Both the position numbers and the translations under genes were made by a program. From Usitatibacter rugosus (lineage in GTDB: Bacteria > Pseudomonadota > Gammaproteobacteria > Burkholderiales > Usitatibacteraceae), in the NCBI RefSeq assembly GCF_013003965.1, contig NZ_CP053069.1, forward strand, positions 2,759,419 through 2,823,418: DNA of 64,000 bases, read 5' to 3'. Position 1 is the stretch's first letter; each line of letters starts with the position of its first letter. Shown piece by piece: positions 37,047 through 62,337 of this stretch. The notes below the pieces were generated by a model. The model saw only the letters and a list, made by a program, of their open reading frames with translations. It did no database searches and was not told where the DNA came from.

Positions 37047-37239
37047 GAAGTATGGAGGGTGGTTTTAGAGGGAAGGAGGGGAAGGAAAAGCGAAGGAAGG
37101 GAAGGAAATCGTTGAAAGTGACTGGAAGTACCATCGTGCCGAATTCACGCGACGCAGGACAAACTCACTTTCAGAGCTTTCCTTCCCTTCCTCCGCTTTT
37201 CCTTCCCATCCTTCCTTTTCAAAATCGGCGTTTGCACAG
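37047..37239. repeat. Polypurine/polypyrimidine inverted repeat, copy 3
   Basis: Core arms are 37071-37121 and 37165-37216 (about 51 bases, roughly 6 mismatches). The left arm contains GGGGAAGGAAAAGCGAAGGA. Outside the arms the left flank (TGGAGGGTGGTTTTAGAG) and right flank (AAAATCGGCGTTTGCACAG) match, in reversed orientation, the flanks of the copy at 48671. This shows that the conserved unit is about 190 bases. It fills the lolA-ftsK gap. Confidence 0.93.
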
Positions 37240-41927: not shown

Positions 41928-43568
41928 GTGAGCGCCACCGCCACCCGCGTCATCTTCGCGCTGCTGGTGCTGCTCGCGATCTTCGTGGGCATCGACAACA
42001 TGGAGCGCCCGCTCGCGAATCCCGACGAGGGGCGCTACTCGGAGATCTCGCGCGAGATGGCGCAGTCGGGCGACTGGGTCACGCCGCGCCTGAACGGCTT
42101 CAAGTACTTCGAGAAGCCCCCGCTGCAGTACTGGGCGAGCGCGGCGGTGTTCAAGGCGCTCGGCGAGAACGAATACACGGCGCGCCTCTACGTCGCGCTC
42201 TCGGGGCTGCTCGCGGTGCTGATGGTGGCCTACACGGTGCGCCGCCTGGTGTCGCTCCGCGTGGCGCTGCTCGCGGCCGGCGTGCTGGTCTCGTCGCCCT
42301 ACTTCTTCGCCATGTGCGGCGTGATCACGCTGGATACCGGGCTCACCGCCTGGCTCACCGTGGCCCTGTGCGCCTTCCTGCTCGCGCAGGCGGGGCCGGA
42401 AGCGGGACGGCGGCGCTGGATGATCGCCGCGTGGGCCGCGATCGCGCTTGCGGTGCTCTCCAAGGGCCTCGTGGGCTTCCTCTTCCCGGCCGCGACGATC
42501 TTTCTCTATTGCGCGGTCCACCGCGACTGGTCGCTGTTGAAGCGCGTCGAATGGCTGCGCGGGCTCGCGGTGTTCTTCGCGATCAGCGCCCCCTGGTTCG
42601 TGCTGGTGTCGCAAGCCAATCCGGAGTTCGCCCGCTTCTTCTTCATCCACGAGCACTTCGAGCGCTTCCTCAGCACCACGCACCGGCGCTACGAGCCCTG
42701 GTACTACTTCCTGCCGATCCTCGTGGGGGGATTCGGCCCGTGGATGCTGGCACTCTTCCCCGCGGCCTTCGGCGCGTGGCGCGGCGAGAATCCGGCACGG
42801 GAATTCGCCTGGCGGCGCTTCGCGCTGATCTGGTGCGCTTTCATCCTGGTCTTCTTCAGCATCTCGAAGTCCAAGCTGCCCGCCTACATCCTGCCGCTCT
42901 TTCCGCCGCTCGCGATGCTGGTGGGCGAATGGCTGGAAAGCGTGGACAGCCGCCGCCTCGCGCGCTACCTGGTGCCGGTGGCGGTGATCATCGCCGCCGG
43001 GCTCGCGGCGATGTGGGGTGCGCCGGAGCGTGCCAAGAGCGCGTGGACGCAGGAGCTCTACGCAGCGGCACGGCCGTACATCGCGTTCGGGTGCGTCGTG
43101 CTGATCGTGGGACTCGTCGCAGGGGCGGCGATGGCGCTGGCCCGCCTGAAGCACGCGGCGATCGCGATCGTCGTCGCCGCGGGGATGGGGTTCGTCGATG
43201 GCGTCGAGGACGGCTACGAGCAGATCTCGCCGCGCCAGTCCGGCCAGGACGTGGTCGCCGCGATGCGCCCGCACCTCACGGCCGATGCCCGCGTGTACTC
43301 GGTCGACTACTACGACCAGACGATCCCGTTCTACCTCGGGCGCGAGGTGACGCTCGCGAAGTACGTGGACGAATTCGAGCTGGGGCAACGCGCGGAGCCC
43401 TCGCGCGCCCTGCCGACGATCGAGGCTTGGCTGGCGGACTTCCAGCGCCCCGGGAGGGCGCTCGCTATAATGCAGCCCGGTCTCTACGACGACGTGCTCC
43501 GGCCCACCGGAATCCCCATGCAACTGATCCATCGAGACGATCGCCGCGTCGTCGTCGTGAAACCGTGA
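41928..43568 (+). CDS. arnT: ArnT-like lipid A glycosyltransferase
   Basis: 546-residue integral membrane glycosyltransferase (GT83/PMT-like) that moves 4-amino-4-deoxy-L-arabinose from undecaprenyl phosphate to lipid A, adding resistance to cationic peptides. The first periplasmic loop has the diagnostic NPDEGRYSEISREM with the acidic catalytic residues. Hydrophobic helices follow (ALLAAGVLVSSPYFFAMCGVI, AAWAAIALAVLSKGLVGFLF, and others), plus a soluble C-terminal periplasmic domain. GTG start at 41928. Its stop overlaps the following arnE-like GTG (GTGA). Other sugar specificities cannot be excluded, but context of arnB-C-A supports ArnT. Confidence 0.88.
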   Translation: MSATATRVIFALLVLLAIFVGIDNMERPLANPDEGRYSEISREMAQSGDWVTPRLNGFKYFEKPPLQYWASAAVFKALGENEYTARLYVALSGLLAVLMVAYTVRRLVSLRVALLAAGVLVSSPYFFAMCGVITLDTGLTAWLTVALCAFLLAQAGPEAGRRRWMIAAWAAIALAVLSKGLVGFLFPAATIFLYCAVHRDWSLLKRVEWLRGLAVFFAISAPWFVLVSQANPEFARFFFIHEHFERFLSTTHRRYEPWYYFLPILVGGFGPWMLALFPAAFGAWRGENPAREFAWRRFALIWCAFILVFFSISKSKLPAYILPLFPPLAMLVGEWLESVDSRRLARYLVPVAVIIAAGLAAMWGAPERAKSAWTQELYAAARPYIAFGCVVLIVGLVAGAAMALARLKHAAIAIVVAAGMGFVDGVEDGYEQISPRQSGQDVVAAMRPHLTADARVYSVDYYDQTIPFYLGREVTLAKYVDEFELGQRAEPSRALPTIEAWLADFQRPGRALAIMQPGLYDDVLRPTGIPMQLIHRDDRRVVVVKP

Positions 43569-43936
43569 ACCCGGTCTCCTTCGCGCTGGTGCTCTTCGGC
43601 GTGCTGCTGAACGCCGCCGCCCAGCTGCTGCTCAAGGCCGGCACGAACCGCATCGGCGAATTCGCCTTCTCGTTCGACAACATCCTGCCCATCGGCGGCA
43701 AGGTCGCGCAGAGCCCGTTCATCTGGGGCGGCCTCGCCTGCTACGGCGTGAGCGTGGTGGTGTGGATCCTCGCCCTCTCGCGCGTGCCGGTGAGCGTGGC
43801 CTACCCGATGCTCTCCATCGGCTACATCGTGAACGCCTTCGCGGCGTGGATGCTGTTCGGCGAATCGCTCGCCATGCAGAAGCTGGTGGGCATCGGCTTC
43901 ATCGTGATCGGCGTCTACCTGGTGGCGCGCTCGTGA
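43565..43936 (+). CDS. Small EamA-type flippase subunit (ArnE/ArnF-like)
   Basis: 123-residue protein with four predicted transmembrane helices, resembling the SMR-like ArnE/ArnF flippase subunits that move undecaprenyl-phosphate-Ara4N across the inner membrane. Sequence: NPVSFALVLFGVLLNAAAQLLLKAG... and GGLACYGVSVVVWILALSRVPVSVAYPMLSIGYIVNAFAAWMLFGE. E. coli needs two such subunits; only one gene is present, so a homodimer or a partner elsewhere is implied. The GTG start overlaps the arnT stop, and its TGA overlaps the aminotransferase GTG. Confidence 0.85.
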   Translation: MNPVSFALVLFGVLLNAAAQLLLKAGTNRIGEFAFSFDNILPIGGKVAQSPFIWGGLACYGVSVVVWILALSRVPVSVAYPMLSIGYIVNAFAAWMLFGESLAMQKLVGIGFIVIGVYLVARS

Positions 43937-45072
43937 CCCAGCCGTTCCTCCCCTTCGCGCGCCCCGGCATGGACGAGGCGACCATCGCCGCCGTCGCCGA
44001 GACGCTGCGCAGCCGCTGGATCGTGACCGGCCCGCGCGCGGCGGCGTTCGAGAAGGCGCTTTCCGAGCGCTTCGGCGGCCGCAGCGTCCGCGCCATGACC
44101 TCCGCCACGGCCGCGATGCAGCTCGCCCTGGAGATGCTCGGCATCGGCGCCGGCGATGAAATCATCGCCCCGGCCCAGAGCTTCTTCGTCACCGGCAACC
44201 TGATCGAGCGCAGTGGCGCGAAAGCCGTGTTCGTGGACGTCGACCTTCGCAGCCGCAACCTGGATTTCGCGCAGGCCCAGGCGGCCGTCTCGCCGAAGAC
44301 GAAGCTGCTGCTGCCCACGCACTACAACGCACCGCTCGATCCCGCCGCGCTCGACACCTTCCGAACGAAGAACAAGGTGCGCATCCTCGAGGATGCGGCG
44401 CTCGCGATCGGCTCGCGCTATCCCGACGGACGCGCGGTCGGCGCGAGCGGCGACCTGGTCACCTTCAGCTTCCACCCGAACAAGAACATGACCACCATCG
44501 AGGGAGGCGCCCTCGTGCTGGACGATGCGAAGGAGACGGCCACCGTCGAGGAGCTGCGCTTCCACGGCATCCGCCGCCAGGCCGACGGCACGCGCGACGT
44601 GGAGCGCGCCGGGACCAAGTACAACTTCTCGGATGTGTCCGCCGCCGTGGGCCTCGAACAGCTGAAGCACCTCGACGCGTGGTGCGCCCGGCGCGAGCAA
44701 CTCGCGAAGCGCTACTTCGAGGGCTTCGCGAACGACGACCTCATCACGCCGGAGTGCCTGCCGCCCGAGAACAACCCCGGCCATAGCTGGAACATGTTCA
44801 CGGTGCTGCTTCCGCTGCCGGCGCTCGGCGTCACGCGCAAGGCCTTCGTCGACGCGATGCAGAAGGAAGGCATCGGGATCGGCATCTCGTACGAGGCGAT
44901 CCACCTCACGTCGCTCTTCCGGAAGAAGGGATTCCGCGAGGGGCAGTTCCCGAACTCCGAGCGCATCGCGCGCGAGACCGTGACGCTGCCGCTCTTCCCC
45001 GAGATGCAGGACTCCGACGTCGAGCGCGTGTGCGCATCGGTGAGCCGCGTGCTGCGGCGGAAGGCGGCCTAG
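43933..45072 (+). CDS. arnB: ArnB-like UDP-4-keto-sugar aminotransferase (DegT/DnrJ/EryC1)
   Basis: 379-residue PLP aminotransferase of the DegT/DnrJ/EryC1 family. The PLP lysine is Lys184 in FSFHPNKNMTTIEGGA. Other conserved parts are TSATAAMQLALEMLGIGAGDEII and VLPTHYNAP. In the Arn pathway it makes UDP-Ara4N from UDP-4-ketopentose. The frame remains open upstream to 43762. GTG at 43933 is the supported start because it overlaps the previous stop (GTGA) and gives the family's usual N-terminus (PFLPFARPGMDEATIAAV). Confidence 0.88.
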   Translation: MTQPFLPFARPGMDEATIAAVAETLRSRWIVTGPRAAAFEKALSERFGGRSVRAMTSATAAMQLALEMLGIGAGDEIIAPAQSFFVTGNLIERSGAKAVFVDVDLRSRNLDFAQAQAAVSPKTKLLLPTHYNAPLDPAALDTFRTKNKVRILEDAALAIGSRYPDGRAVGASGDLVTFSFHPNKNMTTIEGGALVLDDAKETATVEELRFHGIRRQADGTRDVERAGTKYNFSDVSAAVGLEQLKHLDAWCARREQLAKRYFEGFANDDLITPECLPPENNPGHSWNMFTVLLPLPALGVTRKAFVDAMQKEGIGIGISYEAIHLTSLFRKKGFREGQFPNSERIARETVTLPLFPEMQDSDVERVCASVSRVLRRKAA

Positions 45073-45075
45073 AGC

Positions 45076-46020
45076 ATGGCGAAGCCCAACGTCTCGGTCG
45101 TCATCCCCGTCTACAACGAGGAGGCCGTGCTGCCGCAGCTCTTCGCGCGGCTCTATCCCGCGCTGGACAAGCTGGGCGTCAGCTACGAGGTCGTGTTCGT
45201 GAACGACGGCAGCATCGACAAGTCGGTGGCGATGTTGCGCGAGCAATTCCAGCTGCGCCCCGACGTGACGCGTGTCGTGCTCTTCAACGGCAATTTTGGC
45301 CAGCACATGGCGATCATGGCCGGCTTCGAATACTGCCGCGGCGATCGTGTCGTCACCCTCGACGCCGACCTGCAGAACCCGCCCGAGGAGATCGGCAACC
45401 TGCTCGCGAAGATGGACGAGGGCCACGACTACGTCGGCTCCATCCGCCGCAAGCGCAAGGACGCGGCATGGCGGCGCTGGGCCTCGCGCGCGATGAACCG
45501 GATGCGCGAGCGGCTGACCCACATCCAGATGACCGACCAGGGCTGCATGCTGCGCGCCTACGACCGGCCGATCATCGACGCGATCCGCGCCTCGCGCGAG
45601 GTGAGCACGTTCATTCCCGCCCTCGCCTACTCGTTCTCGCGCAATCCGACCGAGATCGAGGTCGGGCACGAGGACCGGCACGCGGGCGAGTCCAAGTATT
45701 CGCTCTACCGGCTGATCCGCCTTAACTTCGACCTCGTCACCGGCTTCTCCGTGGTGCCGCTGCAGCTCTTCTCGCTCTTCGGGATCCTCGTCTCGGTGCT
45801 CTCGGTGCTGGTCTACATCGTGGTCATCGTGAAGCGCATCGCGCTCGGCGAAGGCCACGGCATCGAGGTGATCTGGGACCGCGACATCCTCGAGTTCTTC
45901 CTGATCGGCGTGCAGCTCTTCGGCATGGGCCTGATCGGCGAGTACGTGGGCCGCATCTACCAGCAGGTGCGCGAGCGGCCGCGCTACCTCGTCCAGGCGA
46001 TCCTCGAAAAGCCGGAATGA
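45076..46020 (+). CDS. arnC: Undecaprenyl-phosphate Ara4FN transferase
   Basis: GT2 glycosyltransferase of 314 residues with an N-terminal catalytic domain and two C-terminal transmembrane helices ([24 protein letters not shown] and [22 protein letters not shown]). [17 protein letters not shown] starts the fold. [14 protein letters not shown] is the DXD-type metal/nucleotide site. Transfers the formylated sugar to undecaprenyl phosphate on the cytoplasmic face. The start lies 3 bases after the aminotransferase stop, and the stop overlaps the formyltransferase ATG. Confidence 0.91.
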
Positions 46021-46943
46021 AGTCCACCGCCGTCGTCTTCGCCTACCACGACGTGGGCGTGCGCTGCCTTTCGGTGCTGCTCGACGACGGCGTGGACGTG
46101 AAGCTCGTCGTCACGCACGAGGACGATCCGAAGGAGACGGTGTTCTTCGGCAGCGTCCGCGAGTTGGCGCAAAGCCGCGGGCTCGAGGTCGCAACACCCA
46201 CCGATGCGAACGATCCCGCCTTCGTGGAGCGCCTGCGCTCGATCGCGCCCGATTTCCTCTTCTCGTTCTACTACCGGAAGATGCTCTCGCCTGCCGTGCT
46301 CGCCTCTGCGAAGCGCGGGGCCTTCAACATGCACGGCTCGCTGCTGCCGAAGTACCGCGGCCGCGCGCCCGTGAATTGGGCGGTATTGAAGGGCGAGCGC
46401 GAGACCGGCGCCACGCTGCACGAGATGGTGGCGAAGCCCGACGCGGGCCGCATCGTCGGCCAACAAGGGGTGCCGATCGGCGAGGACGACCTCGCCGTCG
46501 ACGTCTTCGCTCGCGTGACGGCTGCGGCGGAGGCCACGCTGCGCCGGGAGCTTCCGAAGCTGCTGGACGGCTCGGCCACGCTCTCCCCGCAGGATCTCTC
46601 CCAGGGGAGCTACTACCGGGGGCGCAAGCCCGAGGACGGGCGCATCGACTGGACGCAGACAGCGAAGGCGATCCACGACCTCGTACGCGCCGTGGCGCCG
46701 CCCTATCCCGGCGCATTCACGCGCGTGGCCGGCCAGCAACTGCGCGTGTTGCGCACGCGCCTCGCACCCGGCAAAACCCTCGGGCCACGCTCCGCGCTGG
46801 TGGCGACGGCGGAGGGTTTGTACGCGGCGGGCGGCGACGGGGAGGCCCTGGAAATCCTCGAGCTCGAGGTGGACGGAAACCCCATCGCGCCACGGGGCTT
46901 CTGCGACAATATCGGTTTCGGCCCCCACCTTCCCGATCCCTAG
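46017..46943 (+). CDS. arnA: UDP-Ara4N formyltransferase (N-terminal half of ArnA as separate protein)
   Basis: 308-residue formyltransferase. The catalytic Asn104, His106 and Asp143 are visible in [21 protein letters not shown] and [11 protein letters not shown]. It corresponds only to the N-terminal domain of the fused E. coli ArnA; the decarboxylase domain is encoded separately at 47615. Uses N10-formyl-tetrahydrofolate on UDP-Ara4N. The ATG overlaps the arnC stop. The following gene, a TMEM175 channel, separates it from its usual partner domain. Confidence 0.9.
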
Positions 46944-46946
46944 GCC

Positions 46947-47618
46947 ATGGCTACCGCGACGGCGCACCCCGCCCGGTTCCTCCACAAGCACCGCATCGAG
47001 GCCCTCACCGACGGCATCTACGCCGTGGCGATGACGATCCTCGTGCTCGAGCTCAAGTTCGACCACGGCGCGACCTTCGCCACCGCCGCAGACTTCCATT
47101 CCGCGCTGCTGCACCTCTTCCCCAAGTTCTTCGCGTGGATCATCAGCTTCTCGATCCTCGCGACGTTCTGGATCTCCCACCACCGAGCCTTCCATTTCGT
47201 GAAGACGGTGGACGTGAAGCTCCTCTGGATCAATTTGTGGGGACTGATCTTCGCGTCCTTCCTGCCGTTCGCCTCGTCGATGGTCGGCGAGCACACGCGC
47301 TTCTTCACCGCGCAGGCGATGTACGCGGTGACGATGGCCGGCATGGCGCTGGTAGCCATCGTGCAGATCACCTACCTCGAGCGGCATCCGGAGCTGTGCG
47401 ATCCGCCCGTGCCGCACTACGTGGCCAACGGCGCCCGCTTCCGCTGCTTCAGCATCGTCGCGGTGGCGATCCTCGCCATCGTCATCTCCGCCTGGCAGCC
47501 GCTCTTCGGCACCGCGGCCTTCATCCTCATGGCCGTGATGGGCCGCATCGGACGGGGCATCGAAACGCGCGCCGCCGAACGCGAGGCCCAACTCTCCTCG
47601 GATCGACCCTTCCCATGA
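46947..47618 (+). CDS. TMEM175-family potassium channel-like membrane protein
   Basis: 223-residue bacterial TMEM175 (DUF1211) protein with six predicted helices. The first helix carries the family signature [22 protein letters not shown]. Later helices include [24 protein letters not shown] and [16 protein letters not shown]. Family members form potassium-selective channels. It lies 3 bases after the formyltransferase stop, and its own TGA overlaps the decarboxylase ATG, so it is co-translated with the arn genes. This is an unexpected partner; a role in membrane potential or stress from cationic peptides is only an inference. Confidence 0.88.
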
Positions 47619-48658
47619 AAAAGATCTGCATCCTCGGCGTCAACGGCTTCATCGGCCACCACCTCTCGAAGAAAATCCTCGCGGAGACGGACTGGGAGGT
47701 CTACGGCATGGACATGGGATCGGACCGCATCACCGACCTGATGGCCGATCCGCGCTTCCATTTCTTCGAAGGCGACATCACGATCAACAAGGAGTGGATC
47801 GAGTATCACGTCCGCAAGTGCGACGTGATCCTCCCGCTGGTGGCGATCGCCACCCCGGCCACGTACGTGCGCGAGCCGCTGCGGGTCTTCGAGCTCGACT
47901 TCGAAGCCAACCTGCCGATCGTGCGGAGCTGCGTGAAGTACAAGAAGCGCATCCTCTTCCCGTCGACCTCCGAGGTCTACGGCATGTGCGAGGACGGCGA
48001 ATTCGATCCGTACGCGTCCAACCTGGTGCTGGGCCCGATCGACAAGCAGCGCTGGATCTACTCCTGCTCCAAGCAGCTCATGGACCGCGTGATCTACGCC
48101 TACGGCTCCATGGACCAGCTCGACTTCACGCTCTTCCGCCCGTTCAACTGGATCGGCGCGGGGCTGGACTCGATCCACACCGCGAAGGAAGGCAGCTCGC
48201 GGGTCATCACGCAGTTCCTCGGCCACATCGTGCGCGGGGAGCCGATCCAGCTCGTGGACGGCGGCACGCAGAAGCGCGCCTTCACGTATATCGACGACGG
48301 CATCTCGGCGTTGATGAAGATCATCGAGAACAAGAAGGGCATCGCCACCGGGCAGATCTACAACGTCGGCAACCCGAAGAACAACTATTCGGTGCGCGAG
48401 CTGGCGGAGATGATGCTGGCCCTCGCGAAGACCTACCCCGAGTACAAGCGCAACGCCGCGAAGGTGAAGCTCGTGAACACCAGCGCCGGCAAGTACTACG
48501 GCAAGGGCTACCAGGACGTGAAGAACCGCGTGCCGAAGATCGAGAACACGAAGAAGGATCTCGGGTGGGCGCCGAAGGTGGACATGAACACGGCGCTGAA
48601 GAACATCTTCGATGCCTATCGGGGCCAACTCGACGAAGCGCGGACCTTGGCGAGTTAG
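47615..48658 (+). CDS. arnA: UDP-glucuronate oxidative decarboxylase (C-terminal half of ArnA)
   Basis: 347-residue extended [20 protein letters not shown] is the NAD fold. [11 protein letters not shown] and [10 protein letters not shown] provide the Ser/Glu and Tyr-x3-Lys catalytic residues, and the Arg in [16 protein letters not shown] matches ArnA Arg619. Makes UDP-4-keto-pentose from UDP-glucuronate. It appears as a stand-alone protein, as in several Betaproteobacteria. ATG overlaps the TMEM175 gene stop (ATGA). UDP-glucuronate would come from Ugd encoded at 61018. Confidence 0.93.
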
Positions 48659-48670
48659 GCAACGGACGCA

Positions 48671-48865
48671 CTATGCAGACGCCGATTTTTAAAGGGAAGG
48701 ATGGGAAGGAAAAGCGGAGGAAGGGAAGGAAACCCTTGAAAGGGATTTGAAGATGCAGTCGTCTCGAACTCACGCGGTGCAACCATTTCACTTTCAGAGA
48801 TTTCCTTCCCTTCCTCCGCTTTTCCTTCCCATCCTTCCCTCTAAAATAACCCTCCACACCTTCAC
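48671..48865. repeat. Polypurine/polypyrimidine inverted repeat, copy 4
   Basis: Arms 48694-48732 and 48801-48839 are perfect 39-base reverse complements (GGGAAGGATGGGAAGGAAAA at the left end) with a 68-base spacer. The outer flanks match the copy at 37047 in opposite orientation. It fills the 216-base gap between arnA and purE, so it separates two unrelated operons and ends 10 bases before the purE start. No reading frame is evident inside. Confidence 0.96.
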
Positions 48866-61021: not shown

Positions 61022-62337
61022 CGGCCGATCGGGTAGTACTCGAAGCCCTTCGAGCGCACGACGGCGGGCTCGTAGAGGTTGCGGCCGTCGAAGATGACGG
61101 GCGACTTGAGGCTCGCCTTCAGCGCGTCGAAGTCGGGGCTGCGGAAGGCTTTCCACTCGGTCGCGATCAGCAGCGCGTCGGCGCCCTGCGTGGCCTGCAT
61201 CGCGGTACCGGCGAAGGTGATTCCACTCTCGCTCTTGTAGGTCTTCTCGGCCTCCTCCATCGCCACCGGGTCGAACGCGGTGACGGTGGCGCCGGCCTTC
61301 AGCAGGCGCTCGATGATCACGAGGCTCGGGGCCTCGCGCATGTCGTCGGTGTTGGGCTTGAACGCGAGACCCCAGAGCGCGAACTTGCGGCCCGCGAGGT
61401 CGCTGCCAAATTTCTTCAACACCTTGTCCACGAGCACACCCTTCTGGCGCTCGTTGGCCTCCTCGACCGCTCCAACCACCTTGAGGTCGAGGCCGTGCTC
61501 CTGGGCCGTGCGCAGCAGCGCGGTGACGTCCTTCGGGAAGCACGAGCCGCCGTAGCCGGTGCCCGGATAGAGGAAGTGGTAGCCGATGCGCGGGTCGGAG
61601 CCGATGCCGATGCGAACGTGCTCGATGTCGGCGCCCAGGCGCTCGGCGAGGAGCGCCAGCTCGTTCATGAACGAGATGCGCGTGGCGAGCATGGCGTTGG
61701 CCGCGTACTTGGTGAGCTCGGCGGAGCGCACGTCCATCACCTGCAGGCGGTCGTGGCTGCGCTGGAACGGGCCGTAGAGCTCGCGCAGCGCCGTGACGGC
61801 CACGGGATCGTCGGCGCCGACCACGATGCGGTCGGGGCGCATGAAGTCCTCGACGGCCGCGCCCTCCTTCAGGAATTCCGGGTTCGACACGACGCTGAAC
61901 GCGATGTCGGCGCCGCGCTTCTTCAGGCCCTCGGCGATGGCGGCGCGCACCTTGTCCGCCGTGCCGACGGGCACGGTCGACTTGTCGACGACGATCTTCG
62001 GCGCGTCCATGTGCTCGGCGATGTTGCGCGCGGCCGCGAGCACGTGCGAGAGGTCGGCCGAGCCGTCCTCGCCGGGCGGCGTCCCCACGGCGATCATCTG
62101 GATGCGGCCATGGCGCGTGGCCTGCTTCGCATCGGTGGTGAACGTGAGGCGGCCGGCGGCGGCGTTGGCGCGCACGATCTCGCGCAGGCCCGGTTCGTAG
62201 ATGGGGATCTCGCCGCCCTCGAGCATCGCGATCTTGCGCGCGTCCACATCGAAGCAGAGCACATCGTTGCCCACGTCGGCCAGGCAGGCACCGGTGACGA
62301 GGCCCACGTAGCCGGTGCCGATCAGGGTGACCTTCAC
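61018..62337 (-). CDS. ugd: UDP-glucose 6-dehydrogenase
   Basis: Oxidises UDP-glucose to UDP-glucuronate with two NAD, 439 residues. [24 protein letters not shown] is the NAD motif, [11 protein letters not shown] and [24 protein letters not shown] follow. The catalytic cysteine lies in [20 protein letters not shown]. The GTG at 62337 overlaps the pyrF stop (GTGA). Its product is the entry compound for the Arn pathway at 41.9-48.7 kb. Confidence 0.96.

Follow-up and report, generated by a model that had tools for sequence, protein, structure and literature searches.

A cluster of seven genes at 41928-48658 in the analysed stretch of Usitatibacter rugosus DNA (64,000 nucleotides of contig NZ_CP053069.1, positions 2,759,419 to 2,823,418, called the window here) is very probably the main operon of a complete and conventional pathway, which would add 4-amino-4-deoxy-L-arabinose (Ara4N) to lipid A. 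Genes for all steps of this pathway were present in the genome, namely those for the decarboxylase, aminotransferase, formyltransferase, ArnC, ArnD, flippase and ArnT, with one ArnE/F gene and not two. The deformylase gene arnD, which an earlier note on this DNA had described as absent, was indeed absent from the cluster but not from the genome, where a homologue was found about 675 kb away. The pathway looks ordinary, and the unusual point is an ion-channel-like gene of the TMEM175 type, which several related bacteria also carry within the operon.

Aminoarabinose genes and the distant arnD

The genes of the cluster, and one further gene of the window which may feed the pathway, are as follows (scores in bits, with the cut-off of each profile in brackets).

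41928-43568, plus strand: arnT, lipid A 4-amino-4-deoxy-L-arabinosyltransferase, 546 amino acids; NF009784, E 1.2e-70, 238.7 bits (567)
43565-43936, plus strand: single ArnE/ArnF-like SMR flippase subunit, 123 amino acids, GTG start; found by profile scans
43933-45072, plus strand: arnB, UDP-Ara4N aminotransferase, 379 amino acids; NF008658, E 4.4e-89, 298.8 bits (631)
45076-46020, plus strand: arnC, undecaprenyl-phosphate Ara4FN transferase, 314 amino acids; NF007986, E 3.5e-102, under the cut-off (529)
46017-46943, plus strand: separate gene for the formyltransferase half of ArnA, 308 amino acids; NF005414, 425.7 bits (316)
46947-47618, plus strand: TMEM175-like six-helix membrane protein, 223 amino acids; PF06736, 86.7 bits (25)
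47615-48658, plus strand: separate gene for the UDP-glucuronate decarboxylase half of ArnA, 347 amino acids; NF008872, 659.7 bits (294)
61078-62334 (extent of the profile match), minus strand: UDP-glucose 6-dehydrogenase-like gene; TIGR03026, 447 bits (189.8)

The order, strand and coordinates of the seven genes given in the earlier note were borne out by profile scans and by a check of the junctions. The genes share one strand with almost no space between them. Neighbours overlap by 4 bases (GTGA or ATGA) at four of the six junctions and are 3 bases apart at the remaining two, so the cluster from arnT to the decarboxylase is likely transcribed as one message. ATGA overlaps were found between arnC and the formyltransferase and between the TMEM175-like gene and the decarboxylase. 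The coupling that had been noticed for the channel gene thus lies on its decarboxylase side, and 3 bases separate the gene from the formyltransferase.

Both ArnA activities are encoded separately, as had been proposed, and both genes score above the cut-offs of their models. At the positions aligned to ArnA N102, H104 and D140, which we take to be catalytic residues of the formyltransferase half, the formyltransferase has identical residues. The same is true of the decarboxylase at the positions aligned to S433, E434 and R619, presumably its catalytic positions, and its identity with ArnA 306-660 is 56%. ArnB and ArnC share 36% and 47% identity with their E. coli counterparts. The product of arnT carries the Pfam domain Arnt_C (PF18583, 102.7 bits, cut-off 26.5). 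The ArnE/F-like protein exceeds the cut-off of PF00893 (29.7 bits, cut-off 23.7), and its nearest models are ArnF (NF002816, E 3.2e-20) and ArnE (NF011625, E 6.4e-15), both matched under cut-off. It counts against the completeness of the pathway that, apart from the two ArnA halves, all the Arn proteins stay below the curated NCBIfam cut-offs, with matches at E 3.2e-20 or better.

The genome is a single contig of 4,563,145 bases. A search of it for arnD, named in the earlier note as a check that could refute its view, did find the gene outside the cluster, in a 305-codon open reading frame on the minus strand (G000:C1:2125729-2126646). The ArnD model NF011923 has one full-length match in the genome (2125765-2126640, minus; E 1.8e-74, positions 3-293 of 294), and comparison with the sequence of the crystal structure 8t0j gave E 1.6e-55. 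Identity to E. coli K-12 ArnD is 37%, and the segments DVDTFRGTR, HxWDH and HAE(V/L)EG (HAELEG here), which we take to be the metal-site segments of ArnD, are retained. The score of 251 bits is under the NCBI cut-off of 382; 176 of the 177 genomes of the order with a match also fall short of it, many of which have arnD directly after the decarboxylase, and scores of about 250 bits are usual across the order. The gene adjoins a peroxiredoxin (bcp-like) gene and a phoH-like gene. Judged from its sequence, it is a full-length ArnD homologue with the metal-site segments, and a predicted deformylase.

Two explanations had been offered for the missing gene, another deformylase or a formyl step which works differently, and since arnD lies elsewhere in the genome neither is needed. 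Although the cluster itself is without arnD, a pathway lacking ArnD is now very improbable, because a full-length homologue exists and its neighbours link it to the decarboxylase-adjacent arnD of relatives.

Assigned from the established families of the enzymes, the conventional pathway would run as follows. UDP-glucuronate, whose likely source is the UDP-glucose 6-dehydrogenase-like gene at 61078-62334 (top model TuaD UDP-glucose 6-dehydrogenase, 464.5 bits, under its cut-off of 700), would be decarboxylated by the product of 47615-48658, aminated by ArnB and N-formylated by the product of 46017-46943. ArnC would then load the product onto undecaprenyl phosphate, the distant ArnD would remove the formyl group, the ArnE/F-like SMR protein would flip the lipid and ArnT would transfer the sugar.

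Compared with arnBCADTEF of E. coli K-12 (NC_000913.3), the enzyme set is alike once the distant arnD is counted, with 25 to 56% identity per protein. The differences are that ArnA is two genes here and ArnE/F one gene instead of two, that arnT leads the operon, that arnD is elsewhere and that a TMEM175-like gene is inserted. Burkholderia thailandensis and B. cenocepacia, also Burkholderiales, have a single EmrE-like ArnEF homologue, and their arn genes form two transcription units. Those units separate biosynthesis from transport, whereas in U. rugosus the genes from arnT to the decarboxylase stand together and only arnD is apart; no TMEM175 gene is mentioned for the Burkholderia operons in the available part of that source (PMC7835334).

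The split of ArnA was considered as an unusual feature and rejected, since the fusion of its dehydrogenase and formyltransferase parts is the rare form, reported in 39 of 1299 species and in 1 of 42 Betaproteobacteria. According to the same source, as far as available, separate genes are the common and ancestral state and the norm outside Gammaproteobacteria (PMC12650200). What differs here from such separate genes is the third gene between them. Across the order, most decarboxylases among the matches listed are encoded in an open frame which could not accommodate the formyltransferase as well. Because arnD is present, a split ArnA is normal and a single ArnE/F is known in Burkholderia, the standard formylation-deformylation route is the one to be expected.

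Gene order around arnD and its decay in a genome without the operon

Gene order was compared in a family set of 28 genomes from four genera and in an order sample of 349 genomes; the order-level counts used 146 of 149 genomes with the decarboxylase and 149 of 177 with arnD, and both places were listed for 137. In 99 of these 137, arnD starts no more than 3.5 kb from the decarboxylase; for the window's family the count in the same listing was 0 of 9. Both genes occur in 23 of the 28 genomes of the complete family set, and in none of these are they close together. They are hundreds of kb apart in the three single-contig genomes and on different contigs in the 20 drafts.

The arnD loci of the family have neighbours of their own. 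Within flanks of up to 1.5 kb, 24 of 26 loci have a bcp-like gene, 25 have a bcp- or phoH-like gene and none has the decarboxylase (the names PrxQ/Bcp-like peroxiredoxin and PhoH-like rest on scores under the NCBI cut-offs and above those of Pfam). In other families, an unbroken row of decarboxylase, arnD, bcp and phoH was found at three loci (L193, L200 and L218). On one further contig (L118) the row arnB-arnC-formyltransferase-TMEM175-decarboxylase-arnD-bcp-phoH is contiguous. It is these same neighbours that tie the distant arnD of U. rugosus to the decarboxylase-adjacent arnD of relatives. Where arnD stands apart from the decarboxylase in other families, six of eight loci keep bcp or phoH. 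The ancestral order probably included formyltransferase-decarboxylase-arnD-bcp-phoH, and the simplest account would be a single chromosome break between the decarboxylase and arnD before the window's family diversified.

Several points weigh against this account. Since 20 of the 23 family genomes with both genes are drafts, and a few arnD matches are close to the end of a contig, closeness of arnD and the decarboxylase is strictly excluded only in the three single-contig genomes. At the order level, bcp or phoH was in the examined flank at only 3 of 20 decarboxylase-arnD loci, and two of the eight loci with arnD apart (L206 and L209) were without either gene; because of these counts the older gene order is something we infer.

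Outside the window's family, arnD is also away from the decarboxylase at L194, L195, L196, L205, L206, L209, L216 and L219, so the break between the two genes may have occurred more than once. L206 has the row arnC-formyltransferase-arnD, without the decarboxylase in it.

A genome of the same genus, G023 (a single contig), has no operon at the trxB-purE site, which in the window holds smr and all of the operon. The interval from trxB to purE-purK gave no smr or arn match and holds a 336-codon open frame, putatively coding; profile scans of G023 found no decarboxylase, no ArnT C-terminal domain and no TMEM175. Its arnD persists beside bcp and phoH, with a gap of 29 residues and with its HxWDH and HAE segments lacking their histidines. 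As loss of the operon is accompanied by decay of arnD, the comparison supports a functional link between the operon and the distant gene. The product of the 336-codon frame (L226, 436-1503) would be alanine-rich and, by eye, have a signal-peptide-like start; its main part had no match in a Pfam scan.

The TMEM175-like protein and its distribution

The TMEM175-like gene is the sole PF06736 match in the genome. An AlphaFold2 monomer model of its product has six helices and a mean predicted local distance difference test score (pLDDT) of 90.9. The 16 best Foldseek matches were all TMEM175 chains, some of which carry neutral titles and were named from a separate record. The top alignment was to CmTMEM175 (5vre_A; Z 20.4, root-mean-square deviation 2.7 over 184 residues, 24% identity), and MtTMEM175 (6hd8) was matched at Z 12.5. 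The window protein is thus predicted to have the TMEM175 fold, sharing in the model the six helices of both structures; it differs from them in having LTD in place of FSD, in being encoded in an arn operon and in being a predicted channel.

R16, D22, T30 and W75 are invariant in eight family proteins and 29 aligned relatives. The relatives were gathered by peptide patterns which fix residues 22-29 of helix 1, and this accounts for part of the conservation there; D22 is inside a gathering pattern, and R16, T30 and W75 are outside. By spacing, the four residues match R24, D30, T38 and W74 of MtTMEM175, in which basal K+ selectivity comes from the T38 layer (PMC7176437, seen in part), and this conserved pore threonine is present as T30. 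Helix 1 begins with L20-T21-D22 in place of the FSD motif; in the family its equivalent is L-[TSG]-D, the first residue being L in all eight proteins and the middle one variable. In the available part of the same source, FSD belongs to a hydrogen-bond network and is not directly assigned to selectivity (PMC7176437).

Between the window and G024, the ratio of nonsynonymous to synonymous substitution rates (dN/dS) is 0.32 for the TMEM175-like gene, and the arn genes range from 0.105 (decarboxylase) to 0.41 (arnT). The gene therefore appears to be under purifying selection and maintained as a protein.

The earlier note would have counted an adjacency limited to this strain against its view, and a survey ruled such a limit out. 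Nine of 28 family genomes, from three of the four genera, have the TMEM175 gene between the formyltransferase and the decarboxylase (in one of the nine, G011, the gene is divided between the ends of two contigs and is included in the count), and so does L118. In 14 of 28 the two ArnA halves adjoin directly, and the pathway can presumably do without TMEM175 there. Of the remaining genomes, G003 and G015 have contigs which end before the slot and no PF06736 match elsewhere, and G016, G021 and G023 are without the decarboxylase.

A TMEM175 gene was found in 53 of the 349 genomes of the order sample. In 35 of these the decarboxylase was also listed, and four have both within 3.5 kb, all from the window's family. 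A scan of genome contigs for relatives kept 80 of 186, nine of them arn-linked: the new L118, a betaproteobacterial contig, and eight which appear to be family genomes again, equated with them by matching spans and identities.

On the decarboxylase tree, presence of TMEM175 needs five changes, at least four of which are forced by well-supported branches (G015, scored as lacking the gene in another tree, was omitted from this one). In the TMEM175 trees the arn-linked proteins cluster, and none of 500 shuffles was as low. A Caenimonas protein from outside an arn cluster falls among them, in the larger tree further non-arn rows mix in at poorly resolved forks, and several deep forks are likewise poorly resolved in both trees. 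The arn-linked proteins as one clade were disfavoured (approximately unbiased test, p-AU 0.028 and 0.012 in the two trees). A single recruitment with losses and one escape to Caenimonas, and several recruitments, both fit.

The Caenimonas koreensis protein (L117, 4632-5243) is 47% identical to that of the window, with no arn genes in the examined flanks; from its place in the tree, a transfer out of an arn cluster is possible. Another TMEM175 type with the canonical FSDG motif was seen in three family genomes (L012, L013 and L014 from G027, G025 and G019), again with no arn genes in the examined flanks. No shared neighbour was established for the non-arn TMEM175 loci from neighbour lists made by a crude gene caller.

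Possible roles of the channel

It is quite possible, at a little less than an even chance, that the TMEM175 gene landed in a spot of the operon which tolerates insertion and has a role of its own unrelated to Ara4N. Its patchy presence in the family and the repeated changes on the decarboxylase tree speak for this. So do the relatives which Duganella, Massilia, Caenimonas and others have away from arn clusters; no arn gene was in the examined flanks of 71 of the 80 kept relatives, though many are distant and some flanks are short. The packing of the gene is less easily reconciled with a passenger. Slot and strand are identical in all 10 arn-linked lineages found; in the nine with a whole gene, 6 to 134 bases lie between the formyltransferase match and the TMEM175 match, and the spacing to the decarboxylase ranges from overlap to 89 bases. 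The ATGA overlap with the decarboxylase is retained in G024, and the dN/dS against that genome indicates purifying selection.

Repeated co-location and tight packing would also suit a functional partner, which might set the membrane potential or the K+/H+ balance for proton-driven flipping of undecaprenyl-phosphate-Ara4N, or aid survival of the acid or peptide stress which induces the operon; the earlier note had likewise suggested that the channel may help cells under membrane-active peptides. This idea is put forward tentatively. It draws on B. thailandensis, where Ara4N modification tracks membrane potential and the arn operons are required for acid tolerance, the tie to membrane potential being through a different membrane protein, DbcA (PMC7835334, seen in part). 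The predicted TMEM175 fold and the conserved pore threonine (PMC7176437, in its available part) are consistent with it; the related genomes without a TMEM175 gene and the altered FSD motif speak against it. We have low confidence that the channel works for the operon in this way, tuning membrane potential or ion balance for the flipping step, and the passenger is at least as likely. The stronger form, a TMEM175-type cation channel recruited as a dedicated aminoarabinose part which tunes inner-membrane potential or K+/H+ exchange for flipping under acid or peptide stress, is unlikely.

In open-licence literature, no paper linking a TMEM175 channel to arn genes was among the matches listed, which is weak evidence of absence. 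The bacterial TMEM175 paper, in its available part, treats structure and selectivity and names no cellular role (PMC7176437).

Outside the operon, the window holds two palindromic elements of about 160 bases, at 48687-48846 and about 37062-37226. The first has 59-base arms, 92% complementary and 42 bases apart, and by eye the second shares the arm sequence. A 24-mer from the core has three exact copies in the window against 0 expected by shuffles, and among 236 loci examined it occurred only in stretches of this genome. The elements look like small dispersed or repetitive extragenic palindromic (REP)-like repeats.

For the organism, the puzzle of the missing deformylase is closed, as arnD is merely detached and gene orders which join both places are visible. 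G023 offers a natural control for the assignment of ArnD across Burkholderiales. An operon partnership with a lipid modification which depends on membrane potential is a concrete place to seek a role for TMEM175 and a testable lead; if a dedicated recruitment were true, the bacterial TMEM175 channels would gain a definite function in the cell.

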